Source: Alphaproteobacteria bacterium (GTDB taxonomy: Bacteria; Pseudomonadota; Alphaproteobacteria; UBA9219). From it: a stretch of 47,234 bases of DNA. The DNA is taken from assembly GCA_009779135.1 (NCBI GenBank), contig WREW01000007.1, positions 1-47,234 of the forward strand. Reading direction: 5' to 3'. The position numbers were made by a program, and so were the translations under genes. Below, piece after piece: positions 20,318-36,382 of this stretch; position 1 is the first letter of the stretch; each line of letters starts with the position of its first letter. The notes under the pieces are model-generated. The model saw only the letters and a list, made by a program, of their open reading frames with translations, was not told the origin of the DNA and made no database searches.

Positions 20318-23300
20318 CTACTCCCCATGCCTATACCCATCCAAAACACTGCGGAAAAGATCCACCTCGGACAAACCGCCCTGCGCCTCACGAAGATCAT
20401 GCGCCAAAGAGCCTGCGGACGGGCGCGTCAAAACATGGAAAAGCCGACCCTGAGAGGTTTTCTCCATCGCAGGGCCAAAATCCACCGCCAGCCGGTCAAG
20501 CCCCGCCGAATCCCCCTTCTGCGCCAGCGCCACGGCGGCATTGATAAGCCAAGTGGCTTTGTCTTCGCCTAATGTCGTGCCGGATGGCGGCGGCGCACCG
20601 ACCAAAGCCAGCAAAGCTTGGCTTGCATCATCCCATTTATGTTCACGCATGGCCATGTCCGCGCGTAAAATGAGGGAATCTCTGTTGTCCTGCGTGGGCA
20701 GCACGGCCAAAGCCTGGGCATAATCGCCTTTTTCGGAAAGCGCGCGCGCGCGCAAAAGACGGCGTTGAGTCAGAAGGGACTCCGGCGCCGCCTGCTCATC
20801 CTGCCGCGTTTTATCAAGCGCTTCCAAAGCCTGCTGCGGCCTGCGATTCAAAAGCCGGACGCCCGCAAGGCGCGTGGCGATCTTGGCGCGCTCAAGCTGG
20901 TCTTGCGTGTTGCTGAGAACATCCTCAAGCAAATCCTCGCCCTGTTTGAGAAGATCAACAGAGATCAAACGCTCCGCCAGATTGCGCCGCGCCACATTGC
21001 CGTCCTGCCCGGGCGGCATCAGAGTCTTGAAATCGGCATAAAGCGCCAAAGCTTCCAAAGGCCCCAGATCAGCCCCCAGATCCGTTGCGAAAAGATCGCG
21101 GAATATTTTTGACATTTTTTCCTTGATGGCCTCAGCTTCCGGCGCATGAGGATAAAGCCGCAAAGCCTGCGCCAAAGTCGAAAACCCTTCACGATAAGCT
21201 CCGGCGTCAAAATAAAACGCGCCGAGCCGTTGCAAAATATCAAACTCAAGACCATCGCCCCGCCAAGCAAAGCGCATGCCTTCAAGTCGGTCTGCGGCCG
21301 CCGCCGGCGTTAAAGAGCGTGTCGCCACCCCAAGATCAACCAAAGCAAGCTCGGCCCGCACCCTGTAAAGCCAATCATCGCTATGCACCACCTGTTGCCA
21401 GAGCCTTTCGGCTGTTCTTGCAAGGCCTGCCTTGCTGGTTATAACCCCGTGCAAATAGCGCAAAGCCGGCTCGGCGCGCTTGCTGTAGCCAAGCTCTTCC
21501 ACCTTGGCGATCCAGTCGCCCACCAGCTTGTCTTCGCCCAGAGCCGCCGCTGTTTCGATTCCCAAAACGGCAAAGTTCGTGCGGTAAGGCTCCCCATACT
21601 GCGCAAGCCGCGCAAAGCCTTCCTTAAAGGATTCAAACGCAAGGCCCCAGTCATGAAGGCGCGCCTGCGCAATAGCGCGCCAAAGCCGCGTTTCAGGCGC
21701 GCCGCGCAAAGTAATGTGGTTCAGATCCTCAAGCCCCGCTTCAAAATGCCCGTCAGCAATAAGCGCCGCGCCGCGCAGGGCAAGGAAATCACGATCTTCC
21801 AAAACCTGCGGCGCATCTTGTGCCATCACATCCAAAACAGCCAAAGTCTCTGTCGGCAGGCCCCGCGCAAAATAAAAACGCGCAAGCGCCAGACGCGGCA
21901 AAAGGCGGTTTTCCTTTGAAGCGGACACAATGGCCTGCGTAAGCTCCTGCCGCACCGCAACAGGCGAAGCGCCCGCGCGCGCCCATGCCGAAAAATCATA
22001 AAGCGAAGGCACCTTGACACTTGAAATCTGATCCTTCTGGCCCGTATCAGCCAGAGGCGAAAGATCAAGCCCGTCTTTGGCCGTCAGCTCGATTCCATCC
22101 ACTGTACTCTGCACCAAAAGCCCATCCCGCAAAGGCCGGAGAACAAGCCCCTGCGCGGCCGCAAGAACCGTAAAATCCGCAAAACGGCGCATCTGCGTAA
22201 AAGCCGCCGCCTGACGTAAAGGCAAAATAATCAAGCGATCCCCGACAATGGGATCTTCGTAAAAAATCGGGGTCGGTGGGTTGTTGGTCGGCAAAAGAAC
22301 GCGCGCGCCCGCAGCAAAATCAGGCTGAGCAATAAAGTCAAGGGACGGCTCCGACGCCGCATCCGTTGAAACAACATAAACAAGCCAAGCCGTACCCTGA
22401 CGCTGCACACGCACATCCACATCCGCCGGAATAGGAATGCGAAACCCTGTTTGCGAAGGCAGATCAAACCGCTCTATTTTCACAAGCGGCGGCGGCGCGC
22501 GTGAAAGCACCTCCCTTGTAAGCTTGCGGTCGAACAAAACCGTAATAAATCCCGCCCGCGCAAAAATGGCCGCGCCGACATCAATCTGCGGATCAAAACG
22601 CGCCAAAGCCACAGGCTGCGGTTTGTTGAGAAGCTCATGAAAAACCTTCATCGCCTCGGAATCCTGCTCAAAAGGCTTGACGGTCGAATGAAAAGATTCA
22701 ACAGGCGTAAAAGGCGGCTCCAAAGAAGGTTCCTGAAGCTCAATAGGCTCCTCGGTTGTTACCGGTGCCTGTTCTTCTTCTGCGGGTTCTTCCTCCACCA
22801 CGGGGCTTTCTTCTATAGGCGCCGGTTCAAGCGGTTGTTCAGGCGCCAGTTCTTCTTCAGGCAGAGATTCGGGCAAAAGCTCAGCTTCTTGTTCCTCGAT
22901 TTTTTCCTCGGCTTGCGGCTCCGGCGGGCAAGGCTTGACATGGTCAAACGCCATGCGCGTTTTTCCCGCCGCGCCGCTTATATCCACCACGATAGAGGCA
23001 CCATTGAAAAAAGATTTGACCTGCGCCTGCGGCAAAACCTGAAACTGCACGGCCAAAAGCCCATCCGGCGGCGGGCAGATATAAGCAAAATCCTGCACGC
23101 GGCTTAGCGCGCCTTGCGGCAAGGCAAGCTGCGCGGGATGAGAAAAAGAAAGCCGCACAAGCTGCCCTTGATGCGCAAGCTTGTAGGTAATGCCTTTCGG
23201 CGCGTCAAAAACCAGACGGTCATGGGTGTTATGCTGGCCGATTCGCAAAGGAATCGTCACCAATGACTCTTGCGCCGCCACAAAGGCGGGGACACAGAGC

Positions 23301-23344
23301 AAAAGTCCCAAGCACAAAGCAATGCAAGAAAAAGCGCGAAGCAT
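20318..23344 (-). CDS. Large exported TPR protein with an N-terminal AMIN-like region
   Basis: A 1008-residue periplasmic protein. The signal peptide is SCIALCLGLLLCVPAFVAAQ. Residues about 30-130 (RIGQHNTHDRLVFDAPKGI, VRLSFSHPAQL, AQVKSFFNGASIVVDISG) look like an AMIN-type beta domain. Residues about 145-225 are a very acidic proline/glutamate linker (EEKIEEQEAELLPESLPEEE). A second beta-rich domain follows, and from about residue 470 to the end there are tetratricopeptide-like helical pairs (RLALARFYFARGLPTETLAV, DAGAYREGFSTLAQALRLYP, RRLLRARALSEKGDYAQALA). It is 90 bases downstream of cheZ on the same strand. From this neighbourhood I infer a role linked to the flagellar motor or its placement, but no direct motif shows it. 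Confidence 0.85.
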   Translation of the reverse strand: MLRAFSCIALCLGLLLCVPAFVAAQESLVTIPLRIGQHNTHDRLVFDAPKGITYKLAHQGQLVRLSFSHPAQLALPQGALSRVQDFAYICPPPDGLLAVQFQVLPQAQVKSFFNGASIVVDISGAAGKTRMAFDHVKPCPPEPQAEEKIEEQEAELLPESLPEEELAPEQPLEPAPIEESPVVEEEPAEEEQAPVTTEEPIELQEPSLEPPFTPVESFHSTVKPFEQDSEAMKVFHELLNKPQPVALARFDPQIDVGAAIFARAGFITVLFDRKLTREVLSRAPPPLVKIERFDLPSQTGFRIPIPADVDVRVQRQGTAWLVYVVSTDAASEPSLDFIAQPDFAAGARVLLPTNNPPTPIFYEDPIVGDRLIILPLRQAAAFTQMRRFADFTVLAAAQGLVLRPLRDGLLVQSTVDGIELTAKDGLDLSPLADTGQKDQISSVKVPSLYDFSAWARAGASPVAVRQELTQAIVSASKENRLLPRLALARFYFARGLPTETLAVLDVMAQDAPQVLEDRDFLALRGAALIADGHFEAGLEDLNHITLRGAPETRLWRAIAQARLHDWGLAFESFKEGFARLAQYGEPYRTNFAVLGIETAAALGEDKLVGDWIAKVEELGYSKRAEPALRYLHGVITSKAGLARTAERLWQQVVHSDDWLYRVRAELALVDLGVATRSLTPAAAADRLEGMRFAWRGDGLEFDILQRLGAFYFDAGAYREGFSTLAQALRLYPHAPEAEAIKEKMSKIFRDLFATDLGADLGPLEALALYADFKTLMPPGQDGNVARRNLAERLISVDLLKQGEDLLEDVLSNTQDQLERAKIATRLAGVRLLNRRPQQALEALDKTRQDEQAAPESLLTQRRLLRARALSEKGDYAQALAVLPTQDNRDSLILRADMAMREHKWDDASQALLALVGAPPPSGTTLGEDKATWLINAAVALAQKGDSAGLDRLAVDFGPAMEKTSQGRLFHVLTRPSAGSLAHDLREAQGGLSEVDLFRSVLDGYRHGE

Positions 23345-26720: not shown

Positions 26721-28523
26721 ATGATAAAAGCGCGTCATATCGGACTTGCCTTAGGTCTGGCTCTGCTTTTCTCAAGCGCCCAAGCTCAGGCCCAGCTGGC
26801 CCCGCCCCCGCAAAAAGCCCCGCGCACCCCCGTCAGCAAGCAACAACTCAACACCCCCGCCCCCGCCGCGCCCTTGCCGGCCTCGCGCACCCTAGAGGGG
26901 CAGGCTCAGGTGCTTGATTCGAGCCGCCTGCGTCTGGGCGGGTTCGAGGTTAAGCTTTTCGGTCTGGTTCCGCCGCAAATAAGCGCCTCTTACGGCCCGC
27001 AGGCGCGTCAGACGATGGATGCCCTTACAACCGGCGCTGTCACCTGTAAAATCATGGATCGTGAGCGCGCGGGGCCCTATCTGGCCACCTGCCAGACCAC
27101 AGAAGGCCAGACCGATTTCGGGCTTGAGCTTTTAAGGCGCGGGCTTGCCGTCACGGCGCGTGGCTCACTTGCCGGTCATGCTCTTGAAACGCCTTATCTG
27201 GCCGCCGAAAACGCCGCGCAAAGCCAAAAACTGGGGCTTTGGTCTTTGCTCATACCGCAGGCCGTGTCCGCGCAGGACATCCGTAAAGCCGCAAACGCGC
27301 AAAAAGAACCTGTAGCTCAGGGAGAACCCGTTTCCGTCCCCGATCAGCCGAAAGCCGAGGCTCCGACCGCAACGCAAGCAGCCCCCGCCATCGAAACACC
27401 GCAAGCGCCCCCGATGCCTGTTTCCCTAGCGCAGGCAGCCCTGCCTCCACTGATGGTCGAAACGCCCGCTTCGCTTCTTGAGCGCTACCAGATCTTCGCC
27501 ACAGGGCTCTTGGCGCTCACAGGCGCGTTTTTGGTTTTGATGAGTATTTTCGCGCTTAAAAACCGCCAGAAGAAAGACGAGCTGCGCGCCTTGGCCGCCG
27601 CCTTGCGCGGTGAGCTGATGGCGGCGCGCGCCATTTGTCAGGCCCGCCTGTCCAAAATCACTTATGAGGAAAACGATAAAAACACCAGCTGGCCGCGCCT
27701 GCGGGTGATTGTGTTTCAGGCTTATGTGGGCCGCCTTGGCCTTCTGGGCGCCGAACTTTCGCGCCAGATCGCCTCCATTTACGGCATGACAAGTGACTAT
27801 GCCTCTTTCTACGGTACCGGCGATTCGCGCCTTGAAGGGCCCTCCAAAAAACAAGCCCTTGAAACTCTGGTACGGCACATTGAAGAAGTAACGCCGCGCC
27901 TTGCGCAGATTGAGCGCTCCGGCACGCGCCCTGCTTTTGGCCCCGCGCCTGCTTTGAATATGCTTGCCAGCCAGACGCCGCGCCCGCTTTCTCTTGCCGC
28001 AACAGGGAAAAGCGCTGAAAGAACGCATATCGCGCTTAGCGATAACGCGCCTAAAGAAGAAGAGATCACGGCCGCCCCTGTTTCTTTCTCGCCGCAAGCG
28101 CTTGAGGCTTTTCAGGAGAATCTTGCAAAAGCCAAAGACGAAATCATCAAACAGAAAACCAAAAGCGCCCCCGAAGATTCCGGCAAGAAAGAAATCCCGC
28201 AGCAGCCCGCGCCTGTGGCGCAGACGCAGGGGCAGCCAGCGGAAAGCCCCCCTTCCTTGCCTGAGCAGCAGACGCTTAACCGCCTTGATGCGGCGCAAAC
28301 GGCTGTAAAATCCGTTGCCTCCGCCGCGCTTGATATCAAAGCGCCGATTGTGGAGAAGCTCTTTAAACTTAAAAGCAGATCTTCTGAAAAATCCGCCTAT
28401 GATCCCACGGATGATTTTAATATTCCCGACTACGCCAATTTGACGGAAGAAGAACTTGAAGCCCTTCTCTATGAAGATGAGGTTTTCAACTTCCCCTCCA
28501 AACCGCGCACCAAAACAGGTTGA
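26721..28523 (+). CDS. Membrane-anchored protein with a degenerate staphylococcal-nuclease-like domain
   Basis: A 600-residue protein. The signal peptide is GLALGLALLFSSAQAQAQ. Residues about 55-175 look like a staphylococcal nuclease (SNase) domain: QAQVLDSSRLRLGGFEVKLF, the GPQARQTMDALT helix, CKIMDRERAGPYLATC, FGLELLRRGLAV, and AQSQKLGLWS. Catalytic positions are degraded: the metal-binding DGDT is DSSR, and the DAPE glutamate is replaced by VPPQ. A linker, then one membrane helix (YQIFATGLLALTGAFLVLMS, about 253-272), a helical cytoplasmic domain with YGMTSDYASFYGTGDSR, and a long acidic tail ending in LTEEELEALLYEDEVFNF. The next gene starts immediately, so they are probably an operon. 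Confidence 0.75.
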   Translation: MIKARHIGLALGLALLFSSAQAQAQLAPPPQKAPRTPVSKQQLNTPAPAAPLPASRTLEGQAQVLDSSRLRLGGFEVKLFGLVPPQISASYGPQARQTMDALTTGAVTCKIMDRERAGPYLATCQTTEGQTDFGLELLRRGLAVTARGSLAGHALETPYLAAENAAQSQKLGLWSLLIPQAVSAQDIRKAANAQKEPVAQGEPVSVPDQPKAEAPTATQAAPAIETPQAPPMPVSLAQAALPPLMVETPASLLERYQIFATGLLALTGAFLVLMSIFALKNRQKKDELRALAAALRGELMAARAICQARLSKITYEENDKNTSWPRLRVIVFQAYVGRLGLLGAELSRQIASIYGMTSDYASFYGTGDSRLEGPSKKQALETLVRHIEEVTPRLAQIERSGTRPAFGPAPALNMLASQTPRPLSLAATGKSAERTHIALSDNAPKEEEITAAPVSFSPQALEAFQENLAKAKDEIIKQKTKSAPEDSGKKEIPQQPAPVAQTQGQPAESPPSLPEQQTLNRLDAAQTAVKSVASAALDIKAPIVEKLFKLKSRSSEKSAYDPTDDFNIPDYANLTEEELEALLYEDEVFNFPSKPRTKTG

Positions 28524-28531
28524 GCAGAAAA

Positions 28532-29461
28532 ATGAAGCTTATCCAGCTTATTCCTCTCTCGGCGCTTCTTCTGGTTTTAGGCTCCATCGGCTTTATCCTC
28601 TTTGACAAGCCGCCCACAACGCCCGCAGGTGAAGGCCTGCTGCCCGGCATTATCCTGCCGCTTTCCCCCTCGCCGGAGAGAGAAACAGCGCTGTCGCGCG
28701 CTCTACGCACAGGCTTTCTACGCTGCGGTTACGAGATTTCGCCCCCCGCGCTTGCGCGTGACGAAGGCACCGGACAGCTTACGGGCATGGCCGCCGACAT
28801 TATGGAAAAAATTACGCGCGGCACAGGCATGAAAATCACTTGGGCCAGAGAAGTGACCTTTTCCAACTGGCCTGCAGCTTTAAGAGACGGGCAGGTGGAT
28901 GCCATCTGCACGCCGCTTTGGCCGGATGAATCTCTTGCCGGTCTTGCGACTTTCACCACGCCCCTTTTCTATGCCGCGCTTGCGCCGGTAGTGCGCCATG
29001 ACGATCAGCGATTCAGGGTCGATGATCTTTCCCGTCTTAATCAGGACGACGTCATCTTTGCCGTTCAGGAAGGCCATATGGATCAGCGCCTCGCGCGCCA
29101 GTATTTTCCGCATGCGCGGCTTTTAACGTTACCGTCCAGTATCAGCAGCGATCTTTTTTACCAATCTGTCTTAACGCGCGAAGCTGATGCGGTTTTAACA
29201 GATGTGAACAGGCTCTATCAGCTCAACCGCCTGAACAATGGCGCACTGCGCATGATCGGGATGGCGCACCCCGTTACATGGCAGCCCGCCCAATTTGCCG
29301 TGGCCTCAGGCGAAACGCAGCTACAAGCCTTTTTTGACCAAACCATCGTGCGCCTGCAGGATTCAGGAGAGCTTGACGCCATCCTGTCCTCTTGGGAATC
29401 CCAGCGCGGCGGAATCACCACGCGCCCCCCTTCCCCGCCGGAACCCGCCCCAGAAGATTGA
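28532..29461 (+). CDS. Solute-binding-like protein, family 3 (SBP_bac_3)
   Basis: A 309-residue protein. The N terminus has one hydrophobic segment (LIPLSALLLVLGSIGFILF) that may be a membrane anchor rather than a cleaved signal. The rest shows the family 3 layout: FLRCGYEISPPALARDEGTG, LTGMAADIMEKITRGTGMKI, the W of FSNWPAALRDGQVDAICTPL, and the late READAVLTDVNRLYQLN and LQDSGELDAILSSWE. It could bind an amino acid or be a sensor-type module. The start at 28532 (ATG) follows a TTG at 28520 that overlaps the previous stop. No permease or ATPase follows. The C terminus is proline-rich. Confidence 0.8.
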   Translation: MKLIQLIPLSALLLVLGSIGFILFDKPPTTPAGEGLLPGIILPLSPSPERETALSRALRTGFLRCGYEISPPALARDEGTGQLTGMAADIMEKITRGTGMKITWAREVTFSNWPAALRDGQVDAICTPLWPDESLAGLATFTTPLFYAALAPVVRHDDQRFRVDDLSRLNQDDVIFAVQEGHMDQRLARQYFPHARLLTLPSSISSDLFYQSVLTREADAVLTDVNRLYQLNRLNNGALRMIGMAHPVTWQPAQFAVASGETQLQAFFDQTIVRLQDSGELDAILSSWESQRGGITTRPPSPPEPAPED

Positions 29462-32226: not shown

Positions 32227-34233
32227 TTAGGGCACCTTGGTGGCCATGGCGCTGCGGATGCGTTCAAGGAATTGCGCCAGCTGGCGTTCGAGCGCGGAAA
32301 AGGCCTGCGTTTGATGGCGCAGTGCCTGTTTAAGATCGCCTTTTTCAAGATCGGCAAGCGCAAGCGCCATGGCCTGCCGTCCCTCGCCGACTTCGATTTT
32401 TTCAAGCACCGGTCGCGCCACGACATCCTCAAGCGTCGAAAGCAGTAATTGCTGCTGCGTGCGCGCGCGTAAAAGAACCTCGTGCTTGGCTTTGGGCGTC
32501 ATCGCCGTGTCCTTCATCAATTTTTCAACATCCGCCAAAAGAGTCTTTTGCCCCCTTATCAAAAGGCGCAAAGCCGAAACCTGCGCCGCCATCTGCGCCT
32601 GCAAAGGCGTCAGCTCGGGCGGCGCGGTCTGCAAATTTTCCGTCACGGTCTGGAGCTGCTCCAAAATCTTGCGCGCCTGCGCGCGCTGGCCCTGAGAAAG
32701 AGCCGCGGCAAGTTTCTCCACAGGCCCCAAAAGCGCTTGCGGCGCTAAAAAAGAAGGACTCCCCGCAAAAGGCAGATCCATATCCTGCAGCGCCGTCGGC
32801 TGCCGCGTGCGCTCATGCTCAAGCACCTCAAAATAATGCGCCAAGGCCTTTTGCAGCCGCGCAAGATAAACATCCTCCATCGCCTTGCTCGGATGCAAAT
32901 AAGACAAGGCCGTCGCCAGATCCTGCTGTGTTTGCGCAAGATTTGTCCGTGCGCGGCCAAGCGCGCCTTCTTCAAGCCGCAAAGCGGCCTGCCACATCAT
33001 ATCGCTGACAACGCGCAAAGTCTCAGGATCATTGCTTAAAACAAGGCGCACCGCTGCGGCCCGCAAGCTCATCATCACAACAGGATCGCCGCGATAAAGC
33101 CCCTGCTGGCGCGCAATGCCCGCCATCACATTGGCGGCTTCATCCCGCACGGAAGGCTCCACCGGCTTTAAAAGGCGCTGCCGCTCTTCAATCAAAGCGC
33201 GGGAAAAAGGATTGCTGAAAGAGCGCGCAGGCAAAGTCAGTACGCGCGATTCACTCCAAGCCCTGTTGCCGGCGCCATCCGTTGCAATCAGCTGCACGCT
33301 GACAGGAATGCCCGCCCAAGGCAGGGATGTCAGGTCAAGGGTGCGTGACTCTTCAATATCCCGCACATAGGGCGTTGCCAGAAGAATCTCCACAGGCTCC
33401 ATGCTCACATCAGGGGCCGATGTGGTCGGCGCGATACGCACATCCACGCGCTCAAGGCCGTAATCATCCGAAGCCTTATAGGAAAAGCGGACGGTTTTGC
33501 GCAAAGTGATTTCAGGCTCGCTTGTCATCACGATGCGCGGCGCTTCATCAGGAACAGCCACAAGCCGCCAGAGCGCAAGACGCTGAAGTCCGCGATGCAC
33601 GACAACATCAAAACGCTGCGGCGTTCTTACCTCGGGAATAACGAAAACGCGCGTCTCTTGCGTTTCATTCACATCAAAAACAAGACCACGGCCGATAACA
33701 TTCAAAGAGGGGAGCGAACTATCTTCAAGCCAGTTAAGCTTGATCGCGCTGCCCGTCAAAACCTTGGGCACATCCGCGCCCGGGCGCCAGCCCACAAGAG
33801 CCTGCGGCGGATTCATCTGCCAAGGCGCAAGCCGCGTATAGGCAGGCGCTTCAATTTCAAGCTGGGCTGACTCTGTATGATAAACCGGCCAGCAGGAACC
33901 GATCCCCACCAAAAGCGCAACCAGCGCCGTCAAACCCAAGGTCAAAAGCCAAGGCCTTCCGCGCGGCGCGCCGTGCGAAACTTTAAAAATCCACACTACC
34001 ATCACAAAAGCAGCCGAAAAATGAAGCCAAGGATAGAGCGCGGAAAAAACATCAAACAAACGCAAAAAAACATAAAGCGCGATCACCAGAAACGGCGCGA
34101 TCATGATAAAAAAAGCGGCCATGCCTGAAGGCGCTACACAAAGATCGGCCTCGCATGCCGCTTCGGCAACATCTACCTCAAGGCTGCGTTCCTGCTGCTG
34201 CACGAAAGGAGGTTCCCGATTTTCAGGCGGCAT
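32227..34233 (-). CDS. DUF4175/TIGR02302 alphaproteobacterial membrane protein
   Basis: A 668-residue protein of a family restricted to alphaproteobacteria, function unknown. The N terminus has three hydrophobic segments (FFIMIAPFLVIALYVFLRLF, FSAAFVMVVWIFKV, LTLGLTALVALLVGIGSCW, about 38-120). The large remainder is periplasmic: PEVRTPQRFDVVVHRGL, RFSYKASDDYGLERVDVRIA, VSVQLIATDGAGNRAWSESR, then a helical region of about 250 residues (QRLLKPVEPSVRDEAANVMA, DPVVMMSLRAAAVRLVLSND, RARTNLAQTQQDLATALSYL) and a heptad-rich end. In other alphaproteobacteria this gene follows lysA; here it overlaps the lysA-like pseudoenzyme gene by 11 bases. The shortened helical end lacks the very long low-complexity tail of some homologues. 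Confidence 0.9.
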   Translation of the reverse strand: MPPENREPPFVQQQERSLEVDVAEAACEADLCVAPSGMAAFFIMIAPFLVIALYVFLRLFDVFSALYPWLHFSAAFVMVVWIFKVSHGAPRGRPWLLTLGLTALVALLVGIGSCWPVYHTESAQLEIEAPAYTRLAPWQMNPPQALVGWRPGADVPKVLTGSAIKLNWLEDSSLPSLNVIGRGLVFDVNETQETRVFVIPEVRTPQRFDVVVHRGLQRLALWRLVAVPDEAPRIVMTSEPEITLRKTVRFSYKASDDYGLERVDVRIAPTTSAPDVSMEPVEILLATPYVRDIEESRTLDLTSLPWAGIPVSVQLIATDGAGNRAWSESRVLTLPARSFSNPFSRALIEERQRLLKPVEPSVRDEAANVMAGIARQQGLYRGDPVVMMSLRAAAVRLVLSNDPETLRVVSDMMWQAALRLEEGALGRARTNLAQTQQDLATALSYLHPSKAMEDVYLARLQKALAHYFEVLEHERTRQPTALQDMDLPFAGSPSFLAPQALLGPVEKLAAALSQGQRAQARKILEQLQTVTENLQTAPPELTPLQAQMAAQVSALRLLIRGQKTLLADVEKLMKDTAMTPKAKHEVLLRARTQQQLLLSTLEDVVARPVLEKIEVGEGRQAMALALADLEKGDLKQALRHQTQAFSALERQLAQFLERIRSAMATKVP

Positions 34234-35446
34234 GAATGGCCCTCACATTCTGCGCGAACTTTTCGATCAGAAGGGCATCCGCCAAAATCTTGGGGTGGTA
34301 AATCGTTTCATACTGCACGCCGCTGACCAAAAGCACGGGCAGATTCTGCTGGTTCAAGCATCCCGTCTGCATCAAAACAACGCCATCGCCTATCTTGAGA
34401 TCGCAAGGCAAAGACGCGGACGTTGAAAGACAATCGCTTTCATCACAGGAAGGCCCATAAAGGCAGCAGGACATCATGCTGCTCTGGGAAGAGGGCGTGA
34501 TACGCAAAGGAAGCGCTTCCATAGCCGCAAGCTTCGCCCCTTTGGCATGAGCGCGTTCACCCCGCCCGCGCCCCACATCAAGCACGACAAGCGGCTTGTC
34601 TTTTGTTGTCGTGATCGAAAGCACGCGCGCTATGCAGACACCGGCTTCATGAACCAGACTTTCATCGCGCCGGAGCGTTATTTTGCAGCCCAGCGGGCTT
34701 AGCATCTCAGCCACCAGAGCGGCCTGCACATAATCCGCCATGGCGCGCGCGCCGCCGCCGAGCGTAAGATGATTAACCTCAAGTCCCTGCACGCGCAAAG
34801 TCGCCGCCAAAAGGGCAAAAGTCTTGTAAGTCTGGCGCAGCACAGGCGCTTCCATGGACGGCCAAGGCAGGACAAGATCAAGCCCCGTTAAAGAAAGATG
34901 CGTGCTGTTTTCAAGAAGGATCAGCGCTTCTACAATACTGTCGAAATCAAAGCCCGGAAGATTTTTCTCACCTGTACCCAAAGACGCGCTGACCAAAAGC
35001 GATACGGATGCGTGTTTGCCAATCGTGCGTGTCACTTCATTAAGGCGCGCAAGTTCATCAAGGCTGATAACGCCGATCTGGCGCACGCCGGTCAAAAGAG
35101 CTCCCACCATATCATCGCGGGTTTTCATGCGCCCCATCATCATGATGGACTCAGGTTTAAAATCCGCCGTAATGGCGCGCTCCAGCGTCTTGACATCCAT
35201 CGTGGTGACGCCAAGGCCGCAGGATGACAAAAGCTGCGCCACAGCCAAAGGAAGATCATGGTCCAGATCATAGGAAAAACTTACATCAAGCCCGTCAAAA
35301 ACGGCGCTTGAGGCATGAACGCACCGCTCGACCTGCGCGGCGCTGATGCAGGAAAAGGGCGGCGCGACATTTTGCGCAATCTCGCAAAGAGGCAGGGCCT
35401 CCACACAAAGCAAACCATTACGATAGGCATAAACAGATTGGGTCAT
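34223..35446 (-). CDS. LysA/ornithine-decarboxylase-fold protein lacking the PLP lysine (probable pseudoenzyme)
   Basis: A 407-residue protein with the length and order of fold-type III decarboxylases. It occupies the position where alphaproteobacteria carry lysA, between a small lipoprotein and DUF4175. Recognisable elements are LTLGGGARA (about 227-235), HEAGVCIARVL (about 266-276) and GPSCDESDCLSTSASLPCDL (331-350) with KIGDGVVL. The key residues are missing: the Schiff-base segment normally YAVKAN reads YDLDHD (59-64), so the lysine is D62; the PLP-binding HxGS segment reads LTGLDLVLPWPS; and EPGR reads RRDES. It should not bind PLP in the normal way. A degenerate or repurposed protein is the likeliest reading. 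It begins as ATGA overlapping the lipoprotein stop. Confidence 0.8.
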   Translation of the reverse strand: MTQSVYAYRNGLLCVEALPLCEIAQNVAPPFSCISAAQVERCVHASSAVFDGLDVSFSYDLDHDLPLAVAQLLSSCGLGVTTMDVKTLERAITADFKPESIMMMGRMKTRDDMVGALLTGVRQIGVISLDELARLNEVTRTIGKHASVSLLVSASLGTGEKNLPGFDFDSIVEALILLENSTHLSLTGLDLVLPWPSMEAPVLRQTYKTFALLAATLRVQGLEVNHLTLGGGARAMADYVQAALVAEMLSPLGCKITLRRDESLVHEAGVCIARVLSITTTKDKPLVVLDVGRGRGERAHAKGAKLAAMEALPLRITPSSQSSMMSCCLYGPSCDESDCLSTSASLPCDLKIGDGVVLMQTGCLNQQNLPVLLVSGVQYETIYHPKILADALLIEKFAQNVRAIHAA

Positions 35447-35616
35447 GGCGAAAAGTCCGTCTCAGGCGCAGGATAGGTACGGGGATAAACATTTTTCTTT
35501 GGATTAGGCGGATCAGGGTCAGCCGGAAGCTTGCCGCAGCCGACCAAAAACACGCCCAAAGCCGCGAGGGCGAGAAAAGAACAAAGCATCTTCAAGCGCG
35601 TGCGTAAAAGAATCAT
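35443..35616 (-). CDS. Small lipoprotein of the LptM/argH-lysA-linked type
   Basis: A 57-residue product with a lipoprotein signal (RTRLKMLCSFLALAALGVFL) and lipobox LVGC, giving a mature peptide CGKLPADPDPPNPKKNVYPR followed by TYPAPETDFSP. The CGxxG/PxxP and YPRTYP ending match the small lipoproteins found between argH and lysA in alphaproteobacteria, recently linked to LPS transport. Start chosen at 35616; an ATG at 35589 also gives a usable signal. Its stop overlaps the start of the lysA-like gene. It follows flgD on the same strand. Confidence 0.8.
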   Translation of the reverse strand: MILLRTRLKMLCSFLALAALGVFLVGCGKLPADPDPPNPKKNVYPRTYPAPETDFSP

Positions 35617-35668: not shown

Positions 35669-36382
35669 TCAGGCCGCGCTGATACCCGCAAAGATCGAGA
35701 GAATATCCGTATCCTTAACCGTAAGATCCCCGATTTTCAGCCCGACCGAGCCGTCATTGCCTGTTTCAACGGCTGTAATCACCCCGATCACGCGCATGTC
35801 GGTAATCGGGATCAGATCGCCACGGCTGTCCTTGGCGGTCAGAACGAAATTATAAACCCCGTCCGCCACCTGCTCGGTGTCGCTGAGCATGCCATCCCAA
35901 GCGATGCGGTTAAGGCCCCGCGCGGTGGTACCGTCCACGCGCGCGATCACATTGCCGCGTTCATCCTGAATGGAAAGCACAACACTTTGCGCGTCATAGG
36001 GAAGATCATAGGCCAAAAGCCCCGCTCCGCCCTGCACCACCATTTTCCCGCTTGTCGAAGTTTCGGCATAATGCCCGACATAGCCCAAAAGCGGCGTTAT
36101 TCCGTTGGAGTTCATCGTGCCGAGAACTGTATCAAGCTTGTCATTGACGGCCAAAAGCTGCTCGACCTGCGAATATTGGACAAGCTGCTGCGTAAACTGG
36201 CTGGGGTCCATCGGCGCGGTCGGGTCTTGATGTTTAAGCTGCGTGATAAGAATCCTCAAAAACATGTTGAAATCCGCATTCAGCTTTGTGGCCGACTGCT
36301 GAGTTGGCGTCTGCGCCTTGATTTCAGCCTGCTTGGCGACATAGCTGTTCAAAAGAGGATCTGTTGCGGATGTGACTGGCAT
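35669..36382 (-). CDS. flgD: Flagellar hook assembly scaffold FlgD
   Basis: Cap protein for hook polymerisation, exported by the flagellar type III system. The 237-residue product has the N-terminal FlgD signature NADFNMFLRILITQLKHQDP followed by APMDPSQFTQQLVQYSQVEQ, and the C-terminal Tudor/FlgD-Ig region (GYVGHYAETSTSGKMVVQGG, LSIQDERGNVIARVDG, GLNRIAWDGMLSDTEQVADG, VYNFVLTAKDSRGD). AAAGGAG lies eight bases before the ATG. It follows fliK by 13 bases. The hook gene flgE, usually next, is absent from the window. Confidence 0.96.
   Translation of the reverse strand: MPVTSATDPLLNSYVAKQAEIKAQTPTQQSATKLNADFNMFLRILITQLKHQDPTAPMDPSQFTQQLVQYSQVEQLLAVNDKLDTVLGTMNSNGITPLLGYVGHYAETSTSGKMVVQGGAGLLAYDLPYDAQSVVLSIQDERGNVIARVDGTTARGLNRIAWDGMLSDTEQVADGVYNFVLTAKDSRGDLIPITDMRVIGVITAVETGNDGSVGLKIGDLTVKDTDILSIFAGISAA

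Follow-up and report, generated by a model that had tools for sequence, protein, structure and literature searches.

The only lysA gene of an alphaproteobacterium of the UBA9219 lineage appears to encode a pseudoenzyme that has kept its fold

In this study, we analysed a stretch of 47,234 nucleotides (contig WREW01000007.1 of assembly GCA_009779135.1, from an alphaproteobacterium of the GTDB lineage UBA9219; hereafter the window), in which the place of lysA is taken by a gene whose product resembles a diaminopimelate decarboxylase stripped of its catalytic residues. The locus raises the question of how such a gene came to lie there and for what, if anything, it is kept. A first-pass annotation, made from the sequence alone, had proposed a pseudoenzyme kept under selection. 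Below, G000 denotes the genome of the window (1.545 Mb, multi-contig, rated 100% complete), G001-G005 the other genomes of the same genus and G013 a member of another genus of the family.

The gene at the lysA locus, its predicted fold and its lost motifs

The gene starts with ATG at 35446-35444 on the minus strand and runs through its 407 codons without interruption (Table 1). Its intact frame and its tight overlaps with both neighbours, 4 nt (ATGA) and 11 nt, were borne out, and the overlaps are identical between live and degenerate lysA copies. The lipoprotein-lysA-DUF4175 cluster is indeed conserved, as genus relatives have the same gene order, and the order of the flagellar block beside it is likewise conserved across the genus. 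The 57-residue lipoprotein, which has no Pfam match, may be called LptM-like by its position and lipobox only.

Table 1. Positions of the features discussed, in window coordinates
Feature	Position	Strand	Remarks
Open frame	20318..23344	-	1008 aa, without any Pfam match
Family-3 solute-binding protein gene	28520..29461	+	only match of this type in G000
DUF4175 / TIGR02302-type protein	32227..34233	-	668 aa, downstream partner of lysA in the cluster
Degenerate lysA (pseudo-diaminopimelate decarboxylase)	34223..35446	-	407 aa, frame intact
Overlap, lysA end / DUF4175 start	34223..34233	-	11 nt, the same 11 nt in G001-G005
Cysteine motif GPSCDESD, kept	34433..34456	-	residues 331-338, by alignment; lost in G002 and G013
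Former EPGR, now RRDE	34661..34672	-	residues 259-262, by alignment
GGG, kept	34751..34759	-	residues 230-232, by alignment; adjacent GIPYDGQ loop deleted
Former HxGS site, LDLVLPWP	34859..34882	-	residues 189-196, by alignment; HVGS to VLPW (192-195)
Former Schiff-base site, YDLDHD	35255..35272	-	residues 59-64, by alignment; YAVKAN in live LysAs
N-terminal 35 codons	35342..35446	-	residues conserved as in live LysAs; 4-fold synonymous sites saturated
Lipoprotein gene upstream of lysA	35443..35616	-	57 aa, lipobox VGC/G; ATGA overlap (4 nt) with lysA
FlgD-like gene	35669..36382	-	start of flagellar block; named from sequence alone

The window protein belongs to the fold-type III PLP decarboxylases and is nearest to LysA, a likeness of homology and not of chance. 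Both domains expected from the first-pass annotation were matched above their gathering scores (PF02784 with 45.4 bits and PF00278 with 40.0 bits), and solved LysA structures were matched with values down to 7e-19. The score against TIGR01048 (lysA), by comparison, was 81.5 bits over residues 9-363 for a cut-off of 297.9. Intact LysAs encoded at the same place and in the same gene order in genus relatives establish the gene as a true lysA descendant.

Structure prediction agreed with this assignment. An AlphaFold2 model from four sequences had all eight strands of the barrel, with pLDDT values mostly of 70-95 over residues 40-260 that dip to the fifties and sixties in places, whereas the C-domain was modelled at low confidence (below 50). 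The solved structures nearest to the model were LysAs (3vab, E 1e-20, TM 0.57), and two degenerate sequences alone gave the same barrel topology at lower confidence.

Motif losses were read from an alignment to the intact LysAs of the same genus, which confirmed each of the losses claimed earlier. The position of the Schiff-base lysine is Asp62, and the YAxKAN lysine, HxGS, EPGR and GAY of LysA are replaced by YDLDHD, VLPW, RRDE and GCL, respectively, while GGG and a cysteine motif of the GPxCExxD type (GPSCDESD, with E changed to D) are present. Beyond the losses noted earlier, DAGMND reads DVGRGR, and the GADxxxxGE motif has lost its D and its GE. Three segments are deleted: after barrel strand 5, after strand 7 and at GAY..YN. 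In all, the protein is only ~36% identical to its genus relatives, whose live LysAs are 74-91% identical among themselves. As read from this alignment, the window protein has lost its catalytic and PLP-holding residues and is probably a pseudoenzyme, and it is unlikely that another lysine of the barrel has taken over PLP binding, since most of the other residues that hold the cofactor have also been lost.

Live and degenerate LysAs among the relatives

Live LysAs, with scores of 425-433 bits and with YAVKAN, EPGR, CETSD and GAY all present, are encoded in four genomes (G001, G003, G004 and G005) out of the six that represent the genus. These live genes adjoin DUF4175 and, where the contig reaches so far, the flagellar genes, which is the place held by the window gene. 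In the sister species G002 (JAQUHK01, 94% complete), the LysA encoded there is degenerate (58 bits) and is the only one of the assembly, and G013 (62% complete) has a degenerate copy of 149 bits at the same place. The latter (L067:3948-5145) retains the lysine but reads EPGE for EPGR, GAG for GGG and SEGS for CETSD. The degenerate copies of G002 and G013 both keep the lysine and have lost GGG and the cysteine motif, the opposite of what is seen in G000.

The loss of the lysine is thus not a conserved feature of the homologues: YAVKAN is intact in four species of the genus, and even the degenerate copies of G002 and G013 have the lysine. It had been argued that relatives with an intact YAVKAN would point to a recent mutation or an error. 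Such relatives do exist, but neither a recent mutation nor an error is indicated, since the whole protein is only distantly similar to its genus relatives and the sister species is degenerate as well. Two scans of genome collections for further relatives of the window protein yielded none, returning only the G002 record and one distant decarboxylase; viral contigs contained two LysA-like loci, one of which was usable for the fold alignment.

Long branches occur in all of the trees. In the LysA tree, where long branches meet, G000 and G002 are paired (96/92) with G013 next to them (95/93); the species tree also pairs G000 with G002 (91/98) and places G013 outside the pair (p-AU 0.019). G000 and G002 have identical derived residues at 14 of 79 doubly changed columns, for 5.4-6.6 expected (p 0.0004-0.0012 at a 70% conservation threshold), an excess that at a 90% threshold had p 0.077 under the stricter permutation within residue classes and 0.0004 when pooled. 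On the basis of this excess, LysA was probably lost before the two species split. Residues retained at the most conserved columns overlap between G000 and G013 no more than by chance, and a separate loss towards G013, probably an independent and earlier stage of the same process, is the simplest reading. In the G002 assembly we also observed rpoB as two overlapping frames (L084/L086, C120:4255-8396) with a break at about model position 651, which is either a natural split or an assembly frameshift.

Tests of selection on the degenerate gene and rival explanations

Since synonymous sites have reached saturation between these species, the gene was compared with simulated drift. When a live lysA was allowed to drift to the observed divergence, 9-11 stops arose and none of 300 runs remained free of them, and with a different live LysA as a fairer start, each run had to reject 13-15 stop mutations on average. 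The hydrophobic core gave a second line of evidence. In G000, 44 of 58 changed core columns (76%) are still hydrophobic, compared with 0.53±0.06 under stop-free drift, and in G002 the count is 55 of 68 (81%); neither value was reached in any of 200 drift runs. The effect was weaker in G013 (65%), survived realigning of the simulated sequences and was similar in the barrel (0.79) and the C-domain (0.78). In addition, identities between G000 and G005 are concentrated in the first 35 residues (25/35, versus 122/365 in the rest; Fisher p 1.5e-5), likewise in G002 and G013, whereas two live LysAs compared with each other had no such contrast (p 0.31). As synonymous sites within these codons are not conserved (3/9), the constraint there acts on the protein.

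These results have to be weighed against the possibility that the gene is a translated spacer, a useless protein whose frame stays open for the coupling of the lipoprotein, lysA and DUF4175 genes while its residues drift. The identity of the overlaps in live and degenerate copies fits that explanation, as does the finding that columns invariant among the live LysAs are not better retained in the window protein than the rest (42/107). The score against a live-LysA profile likewise did not rise above stop-free drift from the fairer start; it had exceeded drift begun from the same reference, but that advantage vanished and the score was not used as evidence. BLOSUM values at changed sites were only marginally better than drift. 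Translational coupling could indeed explain the open frame by itself, but it does not lead one to expect the core hydrophobicity of G000 and G002, far above stop-free drift, or the conserved N-terminus, and the large deletions fall in active-site loops. We therefore regard a spacer as unlikely, although the gene may owe its retention in part to coupling with DUF4175.

A new enzyme, in which the barrel carries different, PLP-independent chemistry, would account for a kept fold with a remodelled mouth and for the derived residues that G000 and G002 have in common at the old active site (A60D, E87T, G194P and E259R). No common new active site is visible, however: position 62 is D, K and K in G000, G002 and G013, respectively, and of the three only G000 retains GGG and the cysteine motif. 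With the old active-site positions differing between the three lineages, a common new activity is improbable. Less probable still is a decaying relic, that is, a lysA released from selection, for instance by external lysine, whose stops are yet to come, even with the lack of an argH match above the cut-off in both G000 and G002. Identity has fallen to 36% without a single stop or frameshift where drift gives about 9-15 stops, and codon-position G+C equals that of the neighbouring genes; the earlier judgement against such a relic is thereby upheld. An assembly error, chimera or contamination is conceivable in a multi-contig genome, but we give it hardly any credence given that gene order is conserved on both flanks, composition is the same as in the neighbours and the independent assembly of the sister species also has a degenerate copy.

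The reading that we consider likely is that the sole lysA of the species has turned into a fold-preserving pseudoenzyme with a non-catalytic role. Judged by its pattern of change, the G000 lysA appears to encode a protein selected to remain open and folded, and what would be expected of a pseudoenzyme kept by selection, namely lost catalytic residues in a conserved fold and frame, is what the alignments and simulations indicate. The first-pass proposal of selection thus gains from the stop-free frame, a core beyond stop-free drift, the conserved N-terminus and a genome with no other LysA.

Lysine supply, a possible role and known systems

A search of the rest of G000 for a functional lysA, as the first-pass annotation had advised, found none, the window gene being the only PF02784 or TIGR01048 match in the genome. 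Family searches matched dapA, dapF and murE almost over their full length, and murE carries the DDNPR motif, a meso-DAP signature. The dapB match covers residues 71-269 of a 270-position model. It is the sole dapB match of the genome (C24:14819-15361, outside the window) and lies in a 235-aa open frame whose N-terminal nucleotide-binding part is unmatched; dapB may thus be a second altered gene of the lysine pathway. As dapA, dapB, dapF and murE are present and there is no other LysA, the cell probably makes diaminopimelate for its wall but not lysine, and would be a lysine auxotroph. For argH, matches above the cut-off were obtained in G003 and G010 but not in G000, G002 or G005, the last of these a relative with a live LysA; trpB, by contrast, is kept. 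Arginine synthesis thus seems to have been lost in parts of the genus, and selective dependence on amino acids seems ordinary in this group. A gene for a family-3 solute-binding protein in the window, a candidate for amino-acid uptake, is the one match of its type in G000, compared with 15 to 35 such matches in G002, G003 and G010.

Possibly, prey, a host or neighbours supplied lysine to the common ancestor of G000 and G002, which would have continued to make meso-DAP for its wall, and catalysis by LysA would thereby have been released. The protein would have been kept if the LysA scaffold, including its N-terminal segment, already fulfilled a role other than catalysis or came to acquire one. 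The likeliest form of that role would be a cofactor-free folded scaffold serving as a structural or binding partner, potentially for products of its own operon such as the DUF4175 protein or for the wall-precursor pathway, with the N-terminal segment as the best candidate for a retained surface. Antizyme inhibitors, which work in this manner on the ornithine-decarboxylase fold, offer a precedent. A further contribution to retention probably comes from selection against stops, by which DUF4175 translation would be uncoupled. More tentatively, and with somewhat less than even confidence, we suggest an ancient pseudo-LysA, one in which catalysis was lost before the two species split, the cofactor-free role is important and the ordinary LysA of the group has a second function.

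As a rule, dead enzymes are duplicates that accompany a live copy. G000, by contrast, has a core biosynthetic enzyme in a single, dead copy and no live LysA at all, yet the fold is still apparently selected. Relatives with a live LysA would allow a direct test of whether LysA has a hidden second role in the lipoprotein-lysA-DUF4175 cluster, which is poorly understood, and the case is a warning that a lysA at its expected place is insufficient to call lysine prototrophy.

Our literature search found no description of a pseudo-LysA and, for DUF4175, a single paper in which it is mentioned. The nearest known systems differ from the window protein. LysA itself (TIGR01048; a fold-type III PLP enzyme) is the ancestor by synteny, sequence and predicted fold, from which the window protein departs in the loss of the Schiff-base Lys, the His, the Glu of EPGR, the Asp and the Tyr (81 versus 298 bits). 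The dead deoxyhypusine synthase paralogue of trypanosomatids (PMC3663545) is likewise a dead homologue kept under selection, but has another fold and activates a live partner subunit, for which G000 has no counterpart. The antizyme inhibitors AZIN1 and AZIN2, dead ornithine decarboxylases, are eukaryotic paralogues of a live enzyme, whereas the window gene is bacterial, occurs once and has neither a live counterpart left nor a second PF02784 match in its genome. They nevertheless belong to the same fold superfamily as the window protein, and AZIN1, although unable to bind PLP, is still a binding partner (PMC6313458).
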